Positions 9,959 to 37,078 of a stretch of 48,328 bases of DNA are shown piece by piece. Below the pieces are notes generated by a model, which was not told the origin of the DNA, made no database searches, and saw only the letters and a list, made by a program, of their open reading frames with translations. The stretch is from an uncultured Bacteroidales bacterium (lineage in GTDB: Bacteria > Bacteroidota > Bacteroidia > Bacteroidales > Bacteroidaceae): the NCBI GenBank assembly GCA_902763865.1, contig CACWTR010000044.1, forward strand, positions 1 to 48,328, read 5' to 3'. Position 1 is the first letter of the stretch. The number at the start of each line of letters is the position of its first letter. The position numbers and the translations under genes were made by a program.

Positions 9959-11911
9959 ATGGCAGACAGTCCTATCAGTATCCTGACCCGCCAACGCTCC
10001 CTGCTGCAGACGGAATACGCCTACGAGAAGGAAGAGTTTCAGCGGCTCACCGAGACGACCGGCATCGACAGCAAGGTGCGGCGCGGCACGGCGTGGTTCC
10101 CCGTCTCGTTGGGGCGAAGCTACCGCAACTCGCTGGACCAGCTGGTGGTGGAGGTTTATAGGGGGCAAGGAGCGAGGGGCATGGAGCAAGGAGCGAGGGG
10201 CATGGGGCAAGGAGCAGGGGGCATGGAGCAAGGGGCTGACGATGAGGCCGAGCCATCCCTCTTCGAGCCGGGCAAGCCTGTCTGTTTCTTCACGGAGGAT
10301 GCTTCCGGCTTGCGGCACGGCACGGGCGGAATGCTGCACTACTACAAGTTCGTGGCTCAGGTGAGCTACGCCGAGGAGGACCGCATGGTGATTGCCCTGC
10401 CCGGCGAGGAGGCCCTGGTGCAGTTGCAGGCTGGTCAGCGCACGGGCGTACAGCTGTACTTCGACGAACAGACGTACCGCCTGATGTTCGAGGCCCTGGA
10501 CAGCGCAATCAGCGCCAAGACAGGCCGCCTGGCCGAGCTGCGCGACATCTTCCACGGTTCGCTGCCCGCCGGCAAGTTCACCTTCGATGCAGTACGCTTC
10601 CCTTGGCTCAACACGTCGCAGCAGGCAGCCGTGAACGAGGTGCTGTGGGCCAAGGATGTGGCCGTGGTCCACGGTCCGCCGGGAACGGGCAAGACGACGA
10701 CGCTGGTGGAAGCCATCTACGAGACGCTGCACCGCGAGAATCAGGTGCTGGTGTGTGCGCAGTCGAACATGGCAGTGGATTGGATTGCCGAGAAACTTGT
10801 GGATCGCGGGGTGAGTGTGCTGCGCATAGGCAACCCGACGAGGGTCACGGACAAGATGCTGAGCTTCACGTATGAAAGGCGCTTCGAGTCGCATCCCCTC
10901 TACACGGACCTGTGGGCTGTGCGCCGTGCCATCGGCGAGCTCTACGCCCATCGCAGCGGCAACACCGAGGGGCGTCACCAGAAGATAGCACGCCTCAGGG
11001 AGCGGGCTGCCGAGATGGAGTTCACCATCAATCAGAGCCTTTTCGACAGTGCCAAGGTGATAGCGTGCACACTGGCTGGTTCGGCCAGCCACCTGCTGAC
11101 AGGCATGAAGTTCGGCACGCTCTTCATCGACGAGGCGGCGCAGGCTCTGGAGGCTGCCTGCTGGATAGCTATCCGCAAGGCGCACCGCGTGGTGCTGGCT
11201 GGCGACCACCGTCAGCTGCCGCCCACCATCATGAGTCCCGAGGCGCTTCGCGGCGGGCTGGACCGCACCCTGATGCAGGCTATCGTGGAGAACAAGCCCG
11301 CTGCGGTGTCGCTGCTGCGGGTGCAGTACCGAATGTGCGACACCATCATGCAGTTCCCCAATCATGAGTTTTACGGCGGCAAGCTGGAGAGTGCGCCCGA
11401 AGTCAAGTACCGCGGCATCCTCGACTGGGACTCCGCCGTGGAGTGGATAGACAGCCCCGACGGAGAAGGAGGCGAGCAGAGCGACGGCCTCTCCCGAGTG
11501 AATCCTGCCGAGGCGGTCCTGACGCTCGAAACCCTCAAGCGTTATTTCGAGAAGATAGGCACCGAGCGCATCCTGGAGGAACGCATCGACGTAGGCATCA
11601 TCTCCCCCTACAAGGGGCAGATACGCCTTCTGCGCCGTCTGCTCAAGAAGGATCGCTTCTGGAGGCCCTTCCGCAACCTTGTCACCGTGAACACGGTAGA
11701 TGGCTTCCAGGGGCAGGAACGCGACATCATCGTCATCAGCCTCGTGCGCTCGAATGCTGAAGGCGACATCGGCTTCCTGCGCGACCTGCGGCGCATGAAC
11801 GTAGCTATCACCCGTGCCCGGATGAAGCTTATCCTTCTGGGCGACCGCACCACGCTGTGCCGCATGCCCTTCTACCGCCGACTCTCGGAATACGTTGACG
11901 CCAGCTGGTAG
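9959..11911 (+). CDS. Superfamily 1 DNA/RNA helicase (Upf1/SMUBP-2-like)
   Basis: The 650-residue protein has the SF1B helicase motif set in order: Walker A VVHGPPGTGKTTTL (about 236-250), QSNMAVDWIAEKL (Ia), FIDEAAQALEAACW (II), LAGDHRQLPPT (III), LLRVQYRMCDTIMQFPN (IV), VNTVDGFQGQERDIIVISLVRSN (split here as motif V) and NVAITRARMKLILLGD (VI). It should be an ATP-driven 5'-3' helicase, with substrate not determinable from sequence. Residues about 67-92 are a low-complexity insert of GARGMEQ-type repeats, encoded by 10158-10232, which splits the N-terminal region. It is divergent from parA and followed by a 22-bp tandem repeat. Confidence 0.92.
   Translation: MADSPISILTRQRSLLQTEYAYEKEEFQRLTETTGIDSKVRRGTAWFPVSLGRSYRNSLDQLVVEVYRGQGARGMEQGARGMGQGAGGMEQGADDEAEPSLFEPGKPVCFFTEDASGLRHGTGGMLHYYKFVAQVSYAEEDRMVIALPGEEALVQLQAGQRTGVQLYFDEQTYRLMFEALDSAISAKTGRLAELRDIFHGSLPAGKFTFDAVRFPWLNTSQQAAVNEVLWAKDVAVVHGPPGTGKTTTLVEAIYETLHRENQVLVCAQSNMAVDWIAEKLVDRGVSVLRIGNPTRVTDKMLSFTYERRFESHPLYTDLWAVRRAIGELYAHRSGNTEGRHQKIARLRERAAEMEFTINQSLFDSAKVIACTLAGSASHLLTGMKFGTLFIDEAAQALEAACWIAIRKAHRVVLAGDHRQLPPTIMSPEALRGGLDRTLMQAIVENKPAAVSLLRVQYRMCDTIMQFPNHEFYGGKLESAPEVKYRGILDWDSAVEWIDSPDGEGGEQSDGLSRVNPAEAVLTLETLKRYFEKIGTERILEERIDVGIISPYKGQIRLLRRLLKKDRFWRPFRNLVTVNTVDGFQGQERDIIVISLVRSNAEGDIGFLRDLRRMNVAITRARMKLILLGDRTTLCRMPFYRRLSEYVDASW
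10158..10232 (+). repeat. In-frame GGGGCAAGGAGCA-type repeat within the helicase gene
   Basis: About six imperfect 12-15 bp units (GGGGCAAGGAGCGAGG, GGGGCATGGAGCAAGG and variants) are read through as Gly/Ala/Arg/Met/Gln. Related runs occur in surE and lpxB. Confidence 0.85.
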
Positions 11912-11961
11912 CGCCTTCTAAACGAACTATTTTCTCCGGGTAAAGGTCGTCCTGTAAAAAA

Positions 11962-12060
11962 CCTCACGAGCTTATGGGCAACACCTCACGAGCTTATGGC
12001 CAACACCTCGCGAGCTTTTGGGCAACACGTCACGAGCTTATGGGCAATGGCTCGTGTGCT
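11962..12060 (+). repeat. 22-bp tandem repeat, four full units and a decayed fifth
   Basis: Units start at 11962, 11984, 12006 and 12028, with a degenerate unit from 12050. The core is CACGAGCTTATGGGCAAC with one to four differences between copies. It begins 50 bp after the helicase stop in a 379-bp gene-free gap. There are no unique spacers, so it is not a CRISPR array. Confidence 0.9.
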
Positions 12061-13978: not shown

Positions 13979-14022
13979 CCTTAATCTCTAATCCCTAATC
14001 TCTAATCTTTTTACTATCTTTG
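13979..14022 (+). promoter_or_regulatory. surE promoter preceded by a heptamer-type repeat
   Basis: TATCTTTG at 14015-14022 is the -7 box. The 30 bases upstream are repeats of CTAATCTC/CTAATCCC, the complement of the GATTAGGGATTAG words found at 37013-37075. Confidence 0.65.
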
Positions 14023-14043: not shown

Positions 14044-14910
14044 ATGCCAAACAGACCTTTGATACTCGTCTCGAATGACGATGGCGTACAGGCACAGGGC
14101 ATCAGGGAACTGACCCGTATGATGCAACAGCTGGGAGACGTCGTCGTAGTGGCCCCCGACGGCCCGCGCAGTGCCGCCTCGTGCAGCATATCGCCCATAA
14201 CGAATATTACCGTGAAGCTCCTGCACGAGGAGGAAGGCTTGCACATATATCAGTGCAGCGGCACACCCACCGACTGCGTGAAGCTGGCGATGGACGGCCT
14301 GCTGGGGCGCGTGCCGGACCTCATGGTGAGCGGCATCAACCACGGCGACAACGCCTCGGTGAGCATTCACTATAGCGGCACCGTGGGGGCGGCACGGGAA
14401 GCTTGCATGAAGCAAGTGCCCGCCATTGCCTACAGCCTGCGGACGAAGAGCTGGCAGTGCGACTTCCGTCCCTACGAGGAAGCAATCCTCCATACGGCAC
14501 GCTACGTGCTGGAGAACGGACTCCCCCCCGATGTCCTGCTCAACGTGAACTTCCCCGAAGTGTCCGAGCTGAAGGGCCTGATGCTGTGCCGCGTCAGCCG
14601 CGGCAGGTGGATGAAGGAGATGGAGAAGGTGGGCGAAGGAACCTATCGGCTGACCGGTTACTTCCAGAACCTGGAGCCCGAGGCCGAGGACACCGACTTC
14701 TGGGCAATGGACCACGGCTATGCCGCCGTTGCACCTGTCCAGCTCGACATGACGGCACACGGGGTGCTGGAAAAAATGAGGGAGCAAGGAGCAAGGGGCA
14801 TGGGGCAAGAGAATAGAATCAAGGGGCAAGGAGCAAGGAGCAAGGGGCAGGGGGCAAGAGAATACAAACTGCCCCAGCAATCCTCTTGCCCCTTGCCCCC
14901 TGCCCCTTAA
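14044..14910 (+). CDS. surE: 5'/3'-nucleotidase SurE with repeat-derived C-terminal tail
   Basis: SurE hydrolyses nucleoside 5'- and 3'-monophosphates using a divalent metal. The metal site is clear: LVSNDDGV (D12, D13), PRSAAS and SGINHGDN, then the SURF-type motif YSGTVGAAREA. The ATG at 14044 follows a TATCTTTG box and gives the standard MPNRPLILVSNDDG opening. The core ends near residue 245 (LDMTAHGVLEKM), the normal family length. The remaining 43 residues are translated from GGGGCAAGGAGCA-type repeats and their inverse (REQGARGMG... to CPLPPAP), and the TAA itself is formed by repeat DNA. The tail is probably non-essential. lpxB follows 12 bases later. Confidence 0.93.
   Translation: MPNRPLILVSNDDGVQAQGIRELTRMMQQLGDVVVVAPDGPRSAASCSISPITNITVKLLHEEEGLHIYQCSGTPTDCVKLAMDGLLGRVPDLMVSGINHGDNASVSIHYSGTVGAAREACMKQVPAIAYSLRTKSWQCDFRPYEEAILHTARYVLENGLPPDVLLNVNFPEVSELKGLMLCRVSRGRWMKEMEKVGEGTYRLTGYFQNLEPEAEDTDFWAMDHGYAAVAPVQLDMTAHGVLEKMREQGARGMGQENRIKGQGARSKGQGAREYKLPQQSSCPLPPAP
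14780..14908 (+). repeat. GGGGCAAGGAGCA-type repeats with inverse copy at the surE 3' end
   Basis: Direct units fill 14785-14860. An inverse copy (CTCTTGCCCCTTGCCCC...) occupies 14883-14908 and can pair with 14842-14860 around a 22-nt loop. The hairpin sits at the surE stop, just before lpxB, and has no U-run, so it is not a standard terminator. Confidence 0.8.
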
Positions 14911-21260: not shown

Positions 21261-24086
21261 TTATGCTTGGGGCTTGACGACGATGTTGACGATGCGGCCC
21301 GGTATGGCAATGGTCTTGACGATCTGCATTCCTTCGAGGTATTTTGCTGCCTCGGGTGCTGAGGTGGCGAGGCTGACCATCTGCTCGGGTGTGGCATCGG
21401 CGGGGAAGAGCATGTCGAAGCGTACCTTGCCGTTGAACTGTACGCCGAGCTTGATGCTGGTCTCCACGAGGTACTTCTCGTCGAACTGCGGCCACTTGGC
21501 ATCGCAGACGGAGCCTGTGTTGCCGAGTGCTTCCCAGAGCTCTTCGGCGATGTGGGGAGCGAAGGGTGCGATGAGCACGGGCAGTTCGCCGAGGACGGTG
21601 CGGCTGGTGCACTTCTGCTGTGTCAGCTCGTTGACGGCCACCATGAAGGCCGAGATGCTGGTGTTGTAGGAGAAGCTCTCGATGTCAGCCGTCACCTTCT
21701 TGATGAGCTTGTGCAGGGTCTTGAGGCTCTCGGGGGACGGCTCGTTGTCCGTTGCGGCCAGGTTGCCGTCCTTGTCCCAGAAGAGTGCCCACAGCTTCTT
21801 GAGGAAGCGGAAGCATCCGTCGATGCCGTTGGTGTCCCAGGGCTTTGACTGTTCTACGGGGCCGAGGAACATTTCGTAGAGTCGCAGTGTGTCGGCTCCG
21901 TAGTTCTCGACAATCATGTCGGGGTTGACGACGTTGTACATCGACTTCGACATCTTCTCGATGGCCCATCCGCAGACGTACTTGCCGTCCTCGAGGATGA
22001 AGTCGGCTGTGGCGTACTCGGGGCTCCATGCCTTGAATGCTTCGAGGTCGAGGATGTCGTTCTTGACGATGTTCACATCCACGTGGATGGGTGTGACGTC
22101 GTACTGGTCCTTCAGTCCGAGGGAGACGAAGGTGTTGGTTTCCTTGATGCGATAGACGAAGTTGGAGCGTCCCTGTATCATGCCTTGGTTGACAAGTTTC
22201 TTGAAGGGCTCGTCGGTCTTGCTCACGCCGAGGTCGAAGAGGAACTTGTTCCAGAAGCGCGAGTAGATGAGGTGGCCTGTGGCGTGCTCTGAGCCTCCGA
22301 CGTAGAGATCGACGTTCTGCCAGTAGGCGGCTGCCTCGGGGCTGACCAGTGCCTCATTGTTGTGCGGGTCCATGTAGCGGAGGTAGTAGGCGCTGGAGCC
22401 TGCAAAGCCCGGCATGGTGTAGAGCTCGATGGGGAAGACGGTCTTGTTGTCGATTGCTGAACAATCGACCACGCGGCGGTTCTGTTCGTCCCATGCCCAT
22501 ACCTTGGCGTTGCCCAGTGGCGGCTCGCCTGTCTCGGTGGGCAGGAACTTTTCTACCTGCGGCAGCTCGATGGGCAGGCACTGCTCGGGTATCATGGTTG
22601 GGATGCCATGCTTGTAATAGACGGGGAAGGGCTCGCCCCAGTAGCGTTGGCGCGAGAAGATGGCATCGCGCAGTCGGTAGTTCACCTTGATGTGTCCCAG
22701 GCCGTGTGCCTGGACGAAGCGCTTCGTCTCGGCGATGGCCTGCTTGATGGTGAGTCCGTTCAGGCAGAGGCGCTCGCCGTCGTACTCCACACTCTTGTCG
22801 GGGCTGACGGGCGAGTTCATGACGATGCCTTCCTTGGCGTCGTAGCTTTCCTCCGAGACGTCGGCTCCCTCCACCAGGGGGATGATGGGCAGTCCGAAGT
22901 GACGGGCGAAGGCGTAGTCGCGGCTGTCGTGGGCGGGGACGGCCATGATGGCTCCCGTGCCGTAGCCGGCCAGGACGTATTCGGCGATGTAGATGGGGCA
23001 GTGGTCGCCCGTGATGGGGTTGATGCCGTAGGCGCCGCTGAAGACGCCTGTGACGGTGTGGTCTATCATGCGTTCCCTCTCGGTGCGGCTCTTGACGTAC
23101 TTGATGTACTCATCGACGGCTTGGCGCTGCTCGGGTGTTGTCACCTTATCGACCAGTTCGCTTTCGGGAGCCAGGACGAAGAAGGTGACGCCGAACATCG
23201 TGTCGGCCCTGGTGGTGAAGATGGTGAAAGCCCCTTCCGGCTCCCCCGAGGGGGAGAGTGTATAGGGAATCTCGACTTCCGTTCCTTCGCTGCGGCCTAT
23301 CCAGTTGCGTTGTGTCTCCTTGATGCTTTCGCTCCAGTCAATGGTGTCAAGCCCGTCGAGCAGTCGCTGGCTGTAGGCGCTGACGCGCAGGCACCACTGC
23401 CGCATCTTCTTCTGCTCCACGGGGTAGCCGCCGCGCACGCTGACGCCTTCCACCACCTCGTCGTTGGCAAGCACCGTGCCGAGGCCGGGGCACCAGTTCA
23501 CCATTGTCTCGCCGAGGAAGGCCAGGCGGTGCTGCATGAGCAGGTCGCTCTGTTCCTGTTCGCTGTCCGGCCACTTGCCTTCCTGCTTGAATTTGTCGAT
23601 GAACTTCTCGATGGGCTGTGCCTTCTGAAGCTCTTCGTCGAAGTAGGAGTTAAACATCTTCTGGAAGGCCCACTGCGTCCACTTGTAGTAGTCGGGCGAG
23701 CAGGTGCGCACCTCGCGGTCCCAGTCGAAGCAGAAACCTATCTTGTCCAGCTGCTGGCGGTAGCGGTCGATGTTGGCGAAGGTGGTCTTCTCGGGGTGCT
23801 GTCCCGTCTTGATGGCATACTGCTCGGCGGGCAGTCCGTAGGCATCGTAGCCCATCGGGTTGAGCACGTTGAAGCCTTGCAGCCGCTTGTAGCGGGCATA
23901 GATGTCGCTGGCGATGTAGCCCAGGGGATGCCCCACGTGCAGTCCTGCGCCGCTGGGGTAGGGGAACATGTTCAGGACGTAGTATTTCCTGCGGCTCCAG
24001 TCCTCCGTCACTTTGTATGTCTGCCGCTCTGTCCAGAGGCGGTGCCACTTCTTCTCAATCTCACGAAAGTTATATTCCTTTGCCAT
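21261..24086 (-). CDS. leuS: Leucyl-tRNA synthetase
   Basis: The 941-residue class I enzyme charges tRNA-Leu. The HIGH motif is HVGH at 50-53 ([15 protein letters not shown]) and KMSKS is at 710-714. The CP1 editing domain is present (about 220-430, with [16 protein letters not shown] and [13 protein letters not shown]). The ATG at 24086 gives the conserved [14 protein letters not shown] opening. Within CP1, near residue 280, the residues SPSGEPEG are encoded by a perfect GC palindrome (CTCCCCC-GA-GGGGGAG at 23241-23256), an apparent in-frame repeat insertion. leuS heads the minus-strand operon leuS-yitT-yitT-rdgB-porZ, from a -7 box at 24120-24127. Confidence 0.96.
23241..23256. repeat. In-frame GC palindrome in leuS
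   Basis: CTCCCCC-GA-GGGGGAG, flanked by CCTTCCGG, is read as part of SPSGEPEG. It resembles the palindromes at 1-20, 66-82 and 36315-36333. Confidence 0.7.
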
Positions 24087-24127: not shown

Positions 24128-24321
24128 CAAAAAAGAATTCAGAATGAAGAACAACGGGGCGAGAATTACGTCATCGGGGGGCGAATTTGTCTCTTTTGCG
24201 ACTCCAGGCGGGGCAAGAAACGCAAAGAAACAGCTGCCGGAGAGGAAAACATCCCTGAAAGGGAGGGTCCGGCAAACCAAACACGGCGATGCGGGTCCGG
24301 AACCCTCCCGGGGTGCGGGAG
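24128..24321. other. Gene-free stretch, nothing recognised
   Basis: I see no convincing gene, RNA or repeat in these 194 bp between the leuS promoter and the 139-bp element. Confidence 0.5.
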
Positions 24322-24460
24322 AAAACCTTGGGCAACGTGACGAAAAACTATTTTCATGACGTGAAAATTAATTTTCACGGTTTGAAAATATATTTTCACG
24401 TCATGAAAATTAATTTTCAAAGCTTGAAAATAACTTTTGATTACGTTGGCTGGCGGTTTT
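24322..24460 (-). repeat. 139-bp palindromic element, copy A
   Basis: Outer ends are AAAACC and GGTTTT, and the next arms are CAACGT and ACGTTG. Between them are four 17-bp units TTTTCA-N5-TGAAAA starting at 24351, 24372, 24393 and 24414, exactly 21 bp apart with spacers TTAA, TATA and TTAA. It lies between the divergent promoters of leuS and the DUF3667 gene and is inverted relative to copy B at 35024. Confidence 0.9.
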
Positions 24461-24518
24461 GTTTGCGCTGCTAAACATTATTTTTCCTGTTCCGGCTTGC
24501 TATGTCGGGCAAAATGCG

Positions 24519-24554: not shown

Positions 24555-25433
24555 ATGAAGAGAATGGCAGAGAAATGGAGGGCGTTCAGGAGATGGCAGC
24601 AGATGCCGCACACCGTGGCCCCGATGTCGGAGCAATGGCACAAGTGCTGCACCTGCGCAACGGAGTTCCAGGGGAACTACTGTCCGCGGTGCGGGCAGTC
24701 GGCCAGCATAGGCCGCTATTCCTTCTGGAAGGCATTCCTGCTGTTCCTCGACGTGTGGGGGCTGGGCAACAGAGGCATGTTCCGTACCCTGCGCGACCTC
24801 ATCCTGCGCCCGGGCTACATGATTCGCGACTACCTGTCCGGCATGCAGTCGGCCTACTTCCCGCCCTTCAAAATGTTCTTCCTGATGACTGCCCTGTCCC
24901 TGATTGTGCAGGGCGGTGTGAATGTGCAGGGCATCAACTATTTTGAGAAATCACGTCAGGAAATAGGCAAGACCAATGACGGCTACCGGGCCCAAAAGGA
25001 CGAGTCGGAGGAAGAGAAACGGGTGGGGCGGGCTGTGTACAGCAGCTTTGACAGAATGGCCGACAAGATGGCGGACTACCAGCAGAACTATCCCAACCTG
25101 TTTTCGCTGGTTCTGCTTCTGCTCTCGTCGGGATACCTCTATTTCTTCTTCCGCAAGAGTCCCCACATCCCCGACCTTCGCTTCTCCGAGTTCATCGTGG
25201 CGTTGGTTTATGTCACCAACATTGTGTCGCTCTTCAGCATTGTCTGCGATGTCCTGTGCATCGGTTGGGGCTGGCAGGTTCCGCTGATGGGCATGATGTG
25301 GATTGTCCCGATGTGTCAGTTGTCGGGATTCAGCTGGTGGAAGGTCAGCCTCATTCTCATGGTGGGAATCGTGCTGGCATTCATGTCCTTCTTCGCGATT
25401 GGGCTGGCCTTCGCCGTATGGATGCTGAAGTGA
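24555..25433 (+). CDS. DUF3667 membrane protein with N-terminal zinc ribbon
   Basis: The 292-residue protein starts with a basic segment and a zinc-ribbon-like CxxC...CxxC (CCTCATEFQGNYCPRCGQ, about 34-51). A conserved DUF3667 region follows (GRYSFWKAFLLFLDVWGLGNRG and RDLILRPGYMIRDYLSG), and then four or five membrane helices. A charged loop (about 160-195) separates the first helix from the rest. The function of the family is unknown. The gene stands alone behind its own promoter and ends 34 bp from the convergent esterase gene. Confidence 0.85.
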   Translation: MKRMAEKWRAFRRWQQMPHTVAPMSEQWHKCCTCATEFQGNYCPRCGQSASIGRYSFWKAFLLFLDVWGLGNRGMFRTLRDLILRPGYMIRDYLSGMQSAYFPPFKMFFLMTALSLIVQGGVNVQGINYFEKSRQEIGKTNDGYRAQKDESEEEKRVGRAVYSSFDRMADKMADYQQNYPNLFSLVLLLLSSGYLYFFFRKSPHIPDLRFSEFIVALVYVTNIVSLFSIVCDVLCIGWGWQVPLMGMMWIVPMCQLSGFSWWKVSLILMVGIVLAFMSFFAIGLAFAVWMLK

Positions 25434-33443: not shown

Positions 33444-34979
33444 CTATTTGCAGAACGGGTCGCCGCTCGGGTCGCGGCTCACCACCCAGCGGAAGGCGTT
33501 TACGAAGAGCAGGTTCTGCGTGGCATCGATGAAGGCTTCGTCGCCGTGCCCCATGTTCAGGTAGATCATCCGGTACTTCGTGTTGGTCCAGACGACGGGG
33601 AAGTCGCCCCACTTCACGACATCTTTCAGGCCGAAGGGATACATCTTGGGCGAGATGGAGAGCAGCACCTCGACGTCGGGATTCAGGCGTGGGCTGGGCT
33701 GCCACTGGTAGAACTCGCTGGCGGGTGCGACAAAGCTCTGCGGCAGGCTGCGCGTGACGGGGTGCTCCCTCGTGTCGCACTCCAGGAGCGCCGGCTGCGG
33801 GGGCCAGTTGTTGCAATAGAACATGCCGCAGCCCAGGAACTCGTTGAACCAGGGCCATCGGGTGTTCCGGTCGTTGTAGGCCGAGGCGTGGAACCCCATC
33901 CATCCGCCGCCGCCTTCCATGTACCTGCGAAAGGCGTCGCGCTGCGCCTCTCCGCCCGGCGTGGCGTTCAGGCTGACGATGATGCTGTAGTCGCGCAGCT
34001 TCTCGTAGGGGTAGTCGGCCAGGGAGGTGGTGACGTCCATGAGCCAGCCCTCGCCGTAGGTGAGCTTTCGGAAGAATTCGATGGCCTGTTTGTCAAACTG
34101 CACGTGTGCTTCCTCTGCCCCGGGCTCGTAGTGGAGCAGGGCGCGGAAGCGGGGCTGGCTGGCATAGTTGGCAGCGTACTCTCTGCCGCTGTCCGCCCCG
34201 TCGTCGCCGAGCGTCCAGTGCAGGGCATTCTCCAGCAGACGGATGAATGCTGCGTTGCGGAACAGCGACTTGCTGTGCCCGAACTGGAAATAGACGTTGC
34301 GTGCCTTCTTCCCTGGGTTGGTCCATATCACGGGGTGGTCGCCCATCCGCACGTCTGTCCGGATGGAGTAGCTGCTTTCATCTACGCTTGCCAGCACGTG
34401 GACGTTGGGCCGCGGACTGGTCTCGTAGGTGTACCATTCGTCTTCCTTCACCACGAAGCGCTCGGGCACTCCCTTCATGACGGGGTGTTCCCTGTCCTCC
34501 GTCAGCACCGTCCCGTCGCACTTCTCGGCGATGTAGTTTCGGTAGCGGATTCCTCCCATGAAGTCGGAGAACCAGCCCCACATTGGGTAGCCGTCGAATT
34601 CTCCGAGCAGGCTGGCATGGTGGAACCCGACGTAGCCGCCCTTTCCCTGGTCGATGTATTGCTGCATGTCCTGCTGTGCCGCCTTGCTCCAGGCGTAGGG
34701 AGGATAGTTCAGCTGGAGCACGAGATTGTATCTGAAGAGTTCTCCCCGGGCGATGTCCTGTGCCGAGTTCAGCACCGTCAGCTCCATGTTGAAGCGTTCC
34801 TTCTGGCCTTCGAGCCAGGCCAGTCCGGCACTGGTGAACCCTTCGTGCAGTCCGCCCCTCTCGGCCAGGACCAGCACCTTTCGCGCGGTGGCCTTCCCGC
34901 CATCCTTTCCCTGTGCGTAGGCCGCCAGTGAGCAGCACATCATGGCCGTCAGCAGCCAAAGAATCCTGAAATGTTTCAT
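33444..34979 (-). CDS. Exported protein with two tandem ThuA domains
   Basis: The 511-residue protein has a signal peptide (about 1-22, ending AYAQ) and two ThuA (class I glutamine-amidotransferase-like) domains. The first (about 34-265) contains VLVLAERGGLHEGFTSAG, GGYVGFHHASLLG and HPVIWTNPGKKARNVYFQFGH. The second (about 280-510) contains FRALLHYEPGAEEAHV, GGWMGFHASAYN and FPVVWTNTKYRMIYLNMGHG. Most ThuA proteins have a single domain of 220-280 residues, so this is an internal duplication. ThuA was linked to trehalose use in Rhizobium; in Bacteroidetes it commonly occurs with DUF1080 genes, as here. No glutaminase triad is apparent. Confidence 0.88.
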   Translation of the reverse strand: MKHFRILWLLTAMMCCSLAAYAQGKDGGKATARKVLVLAERGGLHEGFTSAGLAWLEGQKERFNMELTVLNSAQDIARGELFRYNLVLQLNYPPYAWSKAAQQDMQQYIDQGKGGYVGFHHASLLGEFDGYPMWGWFSDFMGGIRYRNYIAEKCDGTVLTEDREHPVMKGVPERFVVKEDEWYTYETSPRPNVHVLASVDESSYSIRTDVRMGDHPVIWTNPGKKARNVYFQFGHSKSLFRNAAFIRLLENALHWTLGDDGADSGREYAANYASQPRFRALLHYEPGAEEAHVQFDKQAIEFFRKLTYGEGWLMDVTTSLADYPYEKLRDYSIIVSLNATPGGEAQRDAFRRYMEGGGGWMGFHASAYNDRNTRWPWFNEFLGCGMFYCNNWPPQPALLECDTREHPVTRSLPQSFVAPASEFYQWQPSPRLNPDVEVLLSISPKMYPFGLKDVVKWGDFPVVWTNTKYRMIYLNMGHGDEAFIDATQNLLFVNAFRWVVSRDPSGDPFCK

Positions 34980-35000
34980 CTTTTATAGGTTTGTTGCGTA

Positions 35001-35008
35001 CAAAGATA
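35001..35008 (-). promoter_or_regulatory. -7 box of the ThuA gene
   Basis: TATCTTTG on the minus strand. Its -33 region coincides with the GGGTTTT end of element copy B (35024-35030). Confidence 0.65.
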
Positions 35009-35023
35009 CGACTTTTCTTTCAT

Positions 35024-35162
35024 AAAACCCGCAGGGCCACGTTATAAAAGTTATTTTCATGGTTTGAAAATCAATTTTCAAAGCTTGAAAATATATTTTC
35101 ATGACGTGAAAATTAATTTTCATGACGTGAAAATAGTTTTGCAACGCGTTGCGCCGGGTTTT
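35024..35162 (+). repeat. 139-bp palindromic element, copy B
   Basis: It has the same length and plan as copy A. Ends are AAAACCC and GGGTTTT, and four TTTTCA-N5-TGAAAA units start at 35054, 35075, 35096 and 35117, 21 bp apart, with spacers TCAA, TATA and TTAA. It separates the divergent ThuA and guaA promoters and is in the opposite orientation to copy A. The remaining 35163-35297 shows nothing else. Confidence 0.9.
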
Positions 35163-35297
35163 GTGTCCTGCTGTTCCGGAGTTGTTCAGGTGCACTTCGG
35201 CCTTTCCTTTTCAGTGGAAAAGCAAGGCAAATATGCCATTTCCCTTCCGTTGCTGATTTTCTTCGGGCATTTTGGACTTGGTTTGGCTTTTATTTCG

Positions 35298-35373: not shown

Positions 35374-36999
35374 ATGCAGCAACAGAAAATCATCATCCTG
35401 GACTTCGGTTCGCAGACGACGCAGCTCATAGCCCGCCGCCTCCGCGAGCTCGACACGTTCTGCGAGATTCTGCCCTACAACAAGTTCCCCCAGGAGGACC
35501 CCGACGTCATCGGAGTGATACTTGCAGGCAGCCCCTACAGTGTCTATGACCCCGAGGCGTTCCGTGTCGATCTCAGCCAGTTCCGCGGGCGTATGCCTGT
35601 CCTGGGCATCTGCTATGGTGCACAGTACATGAGCCATACGTTGGGCGGCAAGGTGGAGCCGGCAGGCAGCCGCGAGTACGGTCGCGCCAATCTTTCCGCA
35701 ATAGACTTCTCGGACCCGCTCTTCAAGGGCTTCGACCCGGACAGCCAGGTCTGGATGAGCCACGGCGACACCATTACGGCACTGCCCGAGGGCTTCCACT
35801 GCATAGCCAGCACCGAGAAGGTGAAGTATGCTGCCTATGCTGCCGACGGCGAGCCCATCTGGGGCGTGCAGTTCCATCCCGAGGTGTTCCATTCCTTGCA
35901 GGGCACACAGCTCCTGAAGAACTTCGTGGTCGATATCTGCGGCAGCCGTCAGGACTGGTCGCCCGCCAACTTCGTGGAGACCACCGTAGCCGAGCTGCGC
36001 CGTCAGATAGGCCGGGACCGCGTCGTCCTCGGCCTTTCGGGAGGCGTAGATAGCAGCGTGGCCGCCGTCCTGCTGAACAGGGCCATCGGCAGCCAGCTGA
36101 CCTGCATCTTCGTGAACCACGGCATGCTGCGCAAGAACGAGTACGAGAATGTCATGAAGGACTACGAGTGTCTGGGGCTGAACGTTGTCGGCGTGGATGC
36201 CTCGGAGAAGTTCTTCAGCGACCTTGCCGGTGTTGTCGAGCCCGAGCAGAAACGCAAGATTATAGGGCGCGACTTCATAGAGGTGTTCAATGCCCAGGTG
36301 AAGACCCTCTCTAACTCCCCCCTAAAAGGGGAGGATATAAAGTCTCCCTTTGAGGAAGATTTAGAGGGTCCGGAAGCCTCCCCTATGAGGGAAGGTTTGG
36401 AAGGGTCTTCTTATCATTGGCTCGCCCAGGGCACCATCTATCCCGACCGCATCGAGAGTCTGAACATTACGGGCAAGGTCATCAAGAGTCACCACAACGT
36501 AGGCGGCCTGCCCGAGGAGATGAACCTGCAGCTGTGCGAACCGCTCAAGTGGCTCTTCAAGGACGAAGTGCGTCGCGTAGGCCGTCAGCTCGGCATTCCC
36601 GAACACCTCATAGGCCGCCATCCCTTCCCCGGGCCTGGTCTGGCCGTGCGCATCCTTGGTGAAGTCACCCCCCAGAAGGTGCGCATCCTGCAAGAAGCCG
36701 ACGACATCTTCATCCAGGGCCTGCGACAGTGGGGACTCTACGACCAGATATGGCAGGCAGGAGCCATCCTGCTCTCCGACGTGCGCAGCGTAGGAGTGAT
36801 GGGCGACGAGCGTACCTACGAGAACCCTGTCGCCTTGCGAGCTGTCACCAGTACCGACGCAATGACTGCCGACTGGGCCCACCTCCCCTACGAGTTCCTG
36901 GCAAAAGTCTCAAACGACATCATCAACAAGGTGCGCGGCATCAACCGCGTCTGCTACGACATCTCGTCGAAGCCGCCATCGACCATCGAGTGGGAGTAA
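35374..36999 (+). CDS. guaA: GMP synthase (glutamine-hydrolysing) with in-frame repeat insertion
   Basis: GuaA (541 residues) aminates XMP to GMP. The glutaminase domain (1-190) has the nucleophile C80 in [12 protein letters not shown] and the His/Glu of VQFHPEV. The ATP-PPase domain has the PP-loop [14 protein letters not shown] (about 220-233), and the C-terminal dimerisation domain has [17 protein letters not shown] and [10 protein letters not shown]. Residues about 311-345 ([15 protein letters not shown]... to GLEG) have no place in the usual 505-515 residue family alignment. They are encoded by GC/AT palindromes at 36303-36410, inserted just before [11 protein letters not shown]. Since this is the only guaA here and the frame is intact, the enzyme probably tolerates the insertion. 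Confidence 0.95.
36303..36410 (+). repeat. In-frame palindromic insertion in guaA
   Basis: GACCCTCTCTAA (36303-36314) is the inverse of TTAGAGGGTC (36361-36370). CTCCCCC and GGGGAG within 36315-36333 form a second hairpin, and CTCCCCT and AGGGAAG within about 36378-36394 a third. The length is a multiple of three, so it adds about 35 residues. Confidence 0.82.
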
Positions 37000-37012
37000 T
37001 GCGGAGACTGCG

Positions 37013-37078
37013 GATTAGAGATTACGGATTAGGGATTAGGGATTAGGGATTAGGGATTAAGGATTAGAGATCAGAGTA
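37013..37078 (+). repeat. GATTAGGG-type short tandem repeat
   Basis: About eight variants of the heptamer GATTAGG/GATTAGA fill the gap between guaA and the efflux operon. The complementary words occur before surE (13979-14010). Confidence 0.85.

Follow-up and report, generated by a model that had tools for sequence, protein, structure and literature searches.

Dispersed arrays of four phased palindromes in a Bacteroidaceae genome, candidate targets of an HU-wHTH protein

Several bacterial systems rest on short palindromic sites that are dispersed over the chromosome and served by one dedicated protein, as in MatP/matS, Noc/NBS and ParB/parS. REP/BIME elements, which go with RAYT transposases, are intergenic arrays of palindromic units. 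For the HU-HIG proteins (PF18291) we know of no described DNA target, and a literature search for such targets found nothing relevant; the family reportedly underwent an expansion in Bacteroidetes, for which Burroughs and colleagues are said to have proposed, in 2017, a role against mobile DNA. Pfam describes PF18291 as an HU domain fused to a wHTH, an Ig or a Glycine-rich motif. Two further cases come from Porphyromonas gingivalis. The BrickBuilt MITE consists of 23-nt repeats, 1 to 22.8 per copy, with a differing leader and tail carrying TIRs (PMC4596501), and the HU protein PG0121 was studied in relation to a 77-bp inverted repeat (PMC3969353). Literature searches returned no recognised description of the arrays reported here.

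The DNA analysed (the window, 48,328 nucleotides) is contig C44 of G000, a draft genome of an uncultured Bacteroidales bacterium (2.91 Mb, 75 contigs, 84% complete). It contains eight exact TTTTCA-N5-TGAAAA units where shuffled sequences are expected to hold 0.06. Each unit is a 17-bp palindrome, and four of them make up an element, of which the window has two, A and B (Table 1). In element A the units start at 24351, 24372, 24393 and 24414, in steps of 21 bp, and the surrounding region is a single imperfect inverted repeat with 58-nt arms, 78% complementary, centred between units 2 and 3. The four 21-bp-phased units within a near-palindrome that a preliminary description had reported here are thus present and exact. 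The window also has tandem heptamer repeats, at 10162-10236 (GGGGCAA), 13982-14008 (TAATCTC), 14781-14858 (GGAGCAA) and 37012-37071 (GGATTAG). Such repeats mimic period-21 signals and also lie near Lrp/AsnC genes of G000, G468 and G476 (L296, L297, L298).

Table 1. Array elements of the window, their parts and their neighbouring genes
Feature	Position	Strand	Content or basis
Element A, centre	24351..24430	none	four units; cores TGACG, CGGTT, CGTCA, AAGCT
Element A, linkers	within 24351..24430		TTAA, TATA, TTAA
Element A, left arm	24278..24350	none	A-tracts in the ~22-bp register of the family logo
Element A, right arm	24431..24503	none	inverted counterpart of the left arm (ACGTTG, GGTTTT)
Element B, centre	35054..35133	none	four units; cores TGGTT, AAGCT, TGACG, TGACG
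Element B, linkers	within 35054..35133		TCAA, TATA, TTAA
Element B, left arm	34981..35053	none	sequence and family logo
Element B, right arm	35134..35206	none	sequence and family logo
leuS	21261..24086	-	Pfam; neighbour of element A, context only
DUF3667 protein	24555..25433	+	Pfam; neighbour of element A, context only
ThuA-domain protein	33444..34979	-	Pfam; neighbour of element B, context only
GMP synthase (guaA)	35374..36999	+	Pfam; neighbour of element B, context only
Candidate further array	11961..12047	none	four tandem 22-bp repeats (ACCTCACGAGCTTATGGGCAAC, 89% matches), between predicted ORFs

The same element recurs throughout the genome. The four-unit pattern, searched with up to three mismatches, matched 68 and 67 times on the two strands of G000 and the reversed control 0 times; the matches with zero mismatches occupy 65 distinct places. 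Sequence was read for 62 groups, namely 60 fetched loci (59 perfect places and one two-unit place) and the two in the window; four of the 65 perfect places, on C52, C54, C55 and C70, lie outside the fetched set. Four exact units were found in 61 of the 62 groups and two in the other, and all 184 spacings between units are 21 bp. One of the 61 has in addition a fifth unit with one mismatch. The two-unit element (L027, G000:C3:42205) is the only fetched one of its kind and retains the arms. With the two-unit pattern, 207 matches were obtained at two or fewer mismatches and 208 at three or fewer; imperfect copies are almost absent from G000. The preliminary description had named a lack of further copies, or a lost phase, as grounds against a functional array, and what was found is about 65 places with the 21-bp phase kept throughout.

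Within this uniform frame the N5 cores vary, with 9 types over 244 units. Every element has two or three YGnCR units and none has 0, 1 or 4. The order of the two unit classes is likewise restricted (32 CCAA, 15 CACA, 10 CCAC and 4 others), which descent from a few founders may explain in part. There are 55 distinct 80-mers among 61, identical ones being present at different sites. Outside the units, a symmetrised logo of 61 elements has A-tracts, each with pyrimidines after it, at about -6, -28, -50 and -72 relative to the edge of the array, weakening outwards, and symmetric arms of ~22 bp register are also present in the sister species G468 (39 elements). Since the A-tracts reach to about -72 on each side, the footprint of an element would be ~230 bp. 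The array-edge sequence TAGTTTTG itself fits the Bacteroidetes promoter box TAnnTTTG, which in the first 20-bp bin has 20 matches over 124 edges in G000 and 3 over 82 in G468.

The elements are intergenic and show no clear preference for promoters or for an orientation. Of the 62, 29 lie in a tandem setting, 16 in a convergent and 10 in a divergent one, 5 are located within a predicted ORF and 2 at the edge of a contig. Four of the five in-ORF elements are covered by stop-to-stop frames of 87-117 aa and the fifth by none above 83 aa, and because of these short or absent frames the five ORFs are read as spurious. A location between divergent promoters, as proposed in the preliminary description, therefore holds for copies A and B and fails for the family. 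The elements are also kept apart. The 29 within-contig gaps of G000, a set that takes in the two-unit and five-unit elements, have a minimum of 8753 bp, where random placement expects 8.4 gaps below 8.5 kb, and none of 20000 random placements was as sparse. The 15 gaps of G468, drawn from 51 of about 67 elements, have a minimum of 11.9 kb (P 0.0016). On C8 of G468 an arm match suggests a further element ~10.6 kb from a listed one, which is less than that minimum.

The preliminary description had also proposed that the whole element could fold into one long hairpin or cruciform. The 139-nt single strand does fold far better than its shuffles (z of -10.3 as DNA and -10.0 as RNA), and in tandem settings the arrays tend to lie nearer the stop of the upstream gene than the start of the downstream gene, as would suit a cruciform, a long RNA hairpin or a bidirectional terminator. 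The minimum-energy fold, however, is branched, with unit 4 in a hairpin of its own, and is not one long hairpin. The pairing of cores argues further against structure as the function. Units 2 and 3 are complementary in 0 of 62 elements of G000 where 9.5 are expected (0 of 3000 shuffles gave as few) and in 0 of 41 of G468 where 3.6 are expected (34 of 3000 shuffles gave as few). Units 1 and 4, judged by their cores, are complementary no oftener than in shuffles (7/62 against 9.4 expected in G000, 7/41 against 7.4 in G468). These totals of 62 and 41, in the pairing tests as in the TAnnTTTG tests below, count each five-unit element twice. As complementarity between units 2 and 3 is never seen, what is kept is not a long hairpin or cruciform, and the non-matching partner cores led to the rejection of a hairpin, cruciform or terminator function. 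A search against Rfam gave 21 rows, none of which reached the gathering score. A structural element is scarcely credible as an account of the family.

The exact word of G000 was absent from 60 relatives searched, and the exact four-unit word gave 0 stretches in the genome_contigs collection, from which the own species may be left out. The looser two-unit pattern matched in 26 of 399 genomes of the family, a noisy census since the reversed control also matched in 15. The three-unit pattern matched in 17 of 139 genomes of the genus, the own one included, and by this pattern 122 are without a 21-bp array; its reversed control matched in two genomes, G482 (7 vs 5) and G497 (1 vs 5). In several relatives the loci read contained arrays with different words and three to five 21-bp units each. 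The sister species G468 has ~67 elements of the type TTWYCA...TGRWAA, with linkers that are mostly TATA, and this word type gave 35 stretches in genome_contigs, 33 of them from one sheep-rumen MAG. About five positions are apparently common to G000 and G468, each with the species' own word in the centre, and most positions differ. An element common to G464, G472 and G512 has 58-60 identical positions out of 60 in each comparison window from -92 to +207, with wide variation in the neighbouring windows; as some other stretches there are nearly identical too, this by itself is modest evidence. The regions upstream of leuS were uninformative, gene order differing in the relatives compared.

A related class has a period of 22 bp. 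In G074 (54% GC) the patterns used found no 21-bp arrays. In 293 kb of its sequence the arrays with a period of exactly 22 bp number 16, and the other periods from 15 to 30 gave only one array, at 21. Most of the 22-bp arrays have three to five units and are often palindromic by eye; those on contig C1 (L151-L165) include both recurring words (GAGCGTGCTC, GGTGGAGTGCCACC) and single ones. Samples of 100 kb gave 3 arrays of 22 bp in G296, where other periods are equally common, 2 in G211, 1 in G088 and none in G273. The candidate further array of the window, whose word is unlike that of A and B, is probably another member of this wider 22-bp class.

A candidate for the protein that reads the arrays came from one of the positions common to the two species. 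In L048 of G000 and L167 of G468 an array lies directly before an HU-HIG gene. In G000 the product has 210 aa (G000:C12, HU domain at 97962-98354, in loci L048 and L308), and the HU-HIG profile scores are 56.8 bits for L308/L048 and 61.0 bits for L312, with a cut-off of 26.2. A profile built from eight sequences (alignment A1) matched HU and IHF structures around residues 28-83 (best E 3e-4); the single candidate sequence gave no match to them. The C-terminal tail has weak matches only, at best 0.058 in Pfam and E 0.32 to a winged-helix protein of the PDB over residues 141-190, and may be read, weakly by profile and in line with the Pfam description, as a wHTH.

At this common position the array lies 22-23 bp before the TAnnTTTG box of the HU-wHTH gene. 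A TAnnTTTG 15-30 bp beyond an array edge, a range that was picked after the HU-wHTH case had been seen, occurs before this gene only, in 1 of 62 elements of G000 and 1 of 41 of G468. The full layout of array, TTGTT and then TAnnTTTG ~22 bp beyond the array is present in five genomes of the genus (G000, G468, G476, G482, G214). Since the array directly adjoins the promoter of this gene at its -33 region, the protein is probably autoregulated.

The linkage extends to other genomes. Orthologs lie beside arrays in L146 (G476, 68% identity) and in L127 (G078, of another genus, 31%), both loci having been fetched for their arrays only. Among 20 further array loci, three have an intact ortholog just downstream (L325 in G145, L338 in G482, L344 in G214) and one, L337 of G482, a truncated one. 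The match in L325 could be foreseen, its array being the same as that of G078; those in G482 and G214 could not. In all, a profile of the HU-wHTH protein matched in 6 of 62 array-fetched loci of other genomes, and the ortholog follows an array in five genomes besides G000 and G468, two of which (G078, G145) belong to another genus. The G074 protein L310, 33% identical, has no array upstream. In L337 a second array at about 1500-1760 is followed by the truncated start of the HU-wHTH gene, as if the gene and its promoter array had been duplicated and broken.

Linkage was then counted for the HU-HIG family as a whole, one of three families tested (PF01797, PF01037, PF18291). There are 5 matches in G000, 11 in G468 and 6 in G074, and 16 of the 22, those above the cut-off and of at least 140 aa, were counted; six that were short, broken or below the cut-off (L314, L316, L317, L319, L323, L324) were dropped. 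A 21- or 22-bp array lies within 300 bp upstream of 6 of the 16 genes (L308, L305 and L311 in G000, L312 and L304 in G468, L303 in G074), compared with 4 of 227 background genes, taken from one G074 contig with a simple gene finder. P is 2e-7 for 6/16 and 8e-5 for the 4/14 that remain without the two genes that had prompted the idea. L311 was counted by its outer start, from which it is similar to L305 over the full length (64%); if start codons are picked mechanically, an inner ATG is taken and the counts become 5/16 (P 6e-6) and 3/14 (P 0.002). If the background is set at 5%, P rises to 8e-5 (6/16), 0.004 (4/14), 0.0009 (5/16) and 0.03 (3/14). The count leaves out other kinds of upstream signal: at L309 a repeated heptamer, at L321 a weak signal 479 bp away, and a repeat of 26 bp. 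The array is absent upstream of 10 of the 16 genes, one of which has only 137 bp of upstream sequence. L303 and L304 have the array but are without the wHTH-like tail. The word before L305 (CATCGCGATG) recurs in a second G000 array (L068), and that before L303 (GAGCACGCTC) has nine occurrences in the 293 kb of G074 sequence.

Two other kinds of reader were considered. The arrays could be operators of an ordinary regulon, in which a transcription factor controls the genes adjacent to them. The array at the promoter of the HU-wHTH gene would fit, and an Lrp/AsnC gene has an array 244 bp upstream of it. The convergent settings and the lack of a clear orientation preference speak against it, as do the confinement of TAnnTTTG at 15-30 bp to a single element in each genome and the mixed functions of the six Pfam-read neighbour genes of dispersed elements at other positions, which together make a regulon distinctly improbable. 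The second possibility is an Lrp/AsnC octamer wrapping the four sites. The octamer is a disc of four dimers, to which sites at two-turn spacing would fit, and the inner palindrome TGAAAATNNATTTTCA presumably resembles sites reported for archaeal Lrp proteins. In the five array-bearing genomes strong period-21 signals were present at four loci with AsnC-domain genes, three of which proved to be heptamer repeats. This leaves an array beside 1 of 11 AsnC-domain matches, against ~0.8 expected by our own estimate; the candidate was dropped, and an Lrp/AsnC reader appears very improbable.

The reading preferred here, to which a probability of roughly 0.6 is given, is that the arrays are targets of the autoregulated HU-wHTH protein and are dispersed in the manner of nucleoid-organiser sites. 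Each element would bind, with high affinity, a DNA-bending protein of the HU-HIG family that recognises a specific sequence. Each 17-bp palindrome would be read by one dimer, and with four sites two helical turns apart, the four dimers would all sit on the same side of the helix. With the 22-bp A-tract arms, the bent complex would reach over the whole footprint. That the half-sites are invariant, the phase fixed and the word shifted in common from one species to the other would follow from sequence-specific reading, and the HU domain would explain an interest in long, bendable A-tract arms. The remaining arrays, intergenic and at least 8.7 kb apart where this is measurable, would be fixed anchor points of the nucleoid. 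It is the lack of promoter preference together with the minimum spacing that suggests an architectural rather than a regulatory role, and this is the least certain step of the proposal. The phased protein-binding array of the preliminary description is well supported on these grounds, the copies throughout the genome keeping the 21-bp phase and a candidate reader having an array at its own promoter.

The spacing rule fits transposition immunity of a mobile family equally well. In that case, the main rival to the preferred reading, the arrays would be a selfish MITE- or REP-like family that spreads by copying, is uniform through recent spread or gene conversion and has no function for the host. 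Several observations show that mobility or duplication has contributed to their history. At least 8 of 40 copies in G468 lie in a longer repeat that extends ~165 bp to the left and 110-140 bp to the right of the array. Long matches to the left arm of this repeat number ~15 in G468; part of the family in that genome has thus travelled as a MITE-like unit. In G000 three pairs share a flank (L028/L063, 262 bp at 90%; L023/L045, 108 bp at 88%; L023/L024, 99 bp at 84%). The identical 80-mers at different sites and the existence of a P. gingivalis MITE with 23-nt repeats (PMC4596501) point the same way. Against this, among the other G000 copies no common flank of at least 60 bp comes to an end within 120 bp of both array edges, imperfect copies are nearly absent while the alphabet of cores is small, and exact matches in IMG/VR, where a phage origin was looked for, number 0. 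A search of six genomes for the Y1 transposases of REP/RAYT systems gave one strong match in G000 (C4:17736), 31 kb away from the one perfect element that this contig has, and weaker ones elsewhere, those of G468 reaching 28 bits at best. The linkage to the HU-wHTH gene in seven genomes would also be left unexplained, and a purely selfish family is rather unlikely.

Some details of the repeated flanks deserve mention in their own right. The MITE-like subfamily of G468 comprises L172, L176, L189-L191, L196, L197 and L205, and its ends resemble inverted repeats by eye. At G468:C26:5098-5268 two short matches face each other, which may be a copy without an array. The left flank common to L028 and L063 starts 69 bp from the array and could reflect either a duplication or a shared second repeat.

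A broader and more tentative proposal can also be made, for which the chances are judged somewhat less than even. Bacteroidaceae would carry a class of systems that mark the chromosome, each HU-HIG protein having a private palindromic word, set in arrays of about four sites at a two-turn phase, one at its own promoter and the others at kilobase intervals throughout the genome. Several such pairs of protein and word would operate in parallel in one genome (in G000, TTTTCA-N5-TGAAAA and CATCGCGATG), and all sites of a genome would change together as the specificity of the protein drifts. HU-HIG proteins are present in several copies per genome here. If these proteins read the arrays, the whole family gains a testable function and a readable code of unit word, number and phase, a major group of gut and rumen bacteria gains a candidate chromosome-organising system, and the joint change of tens of sites from one species to another would offer a natural example of co-evolution between a protein and its sites.

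Compared with the known systems, the arrays are neither REP/BIME elements nor a BrickBuilt MITE by the features tested. They differ from REP/BIME in spacing and symmetry, and none of the Y1 transposase genes found adjoins a listed element. Like BrickBuilt, which belongs to a related bacterium, they are dispersed in intergenic DNA as tandem repeats with a length of about two helical turns; they differ in having four 21-bp units (61 of 62 groups) with dyad symmetry rather than a variable number of 23-nt repeats (PMC4596501). As to a leader and tail, common flanks are present in three pairs of G000 copies, and at least 8 of 40 G468 copies have the longer repeated unit. PG0121 likewise pairs a Bacteroidales HU protein with a long inverted repeat, but the part of the report drawn on concerns one locus and an E. 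coli-like HU and describes no phased array family (PMC3969353). The candidate reader is a member of HU-HIG by the Pfam cut-off. The sites are dispersed and spaced, the candidate reader is linked to them by promoter position only, and the arrays are candidate sites of a site-specific chromosome organiser. Unlike MatP, Noc and ParB, such a system would have four phased sites at each locus, long arms, a candidate reader of the HU type and a word that varies from species to species.
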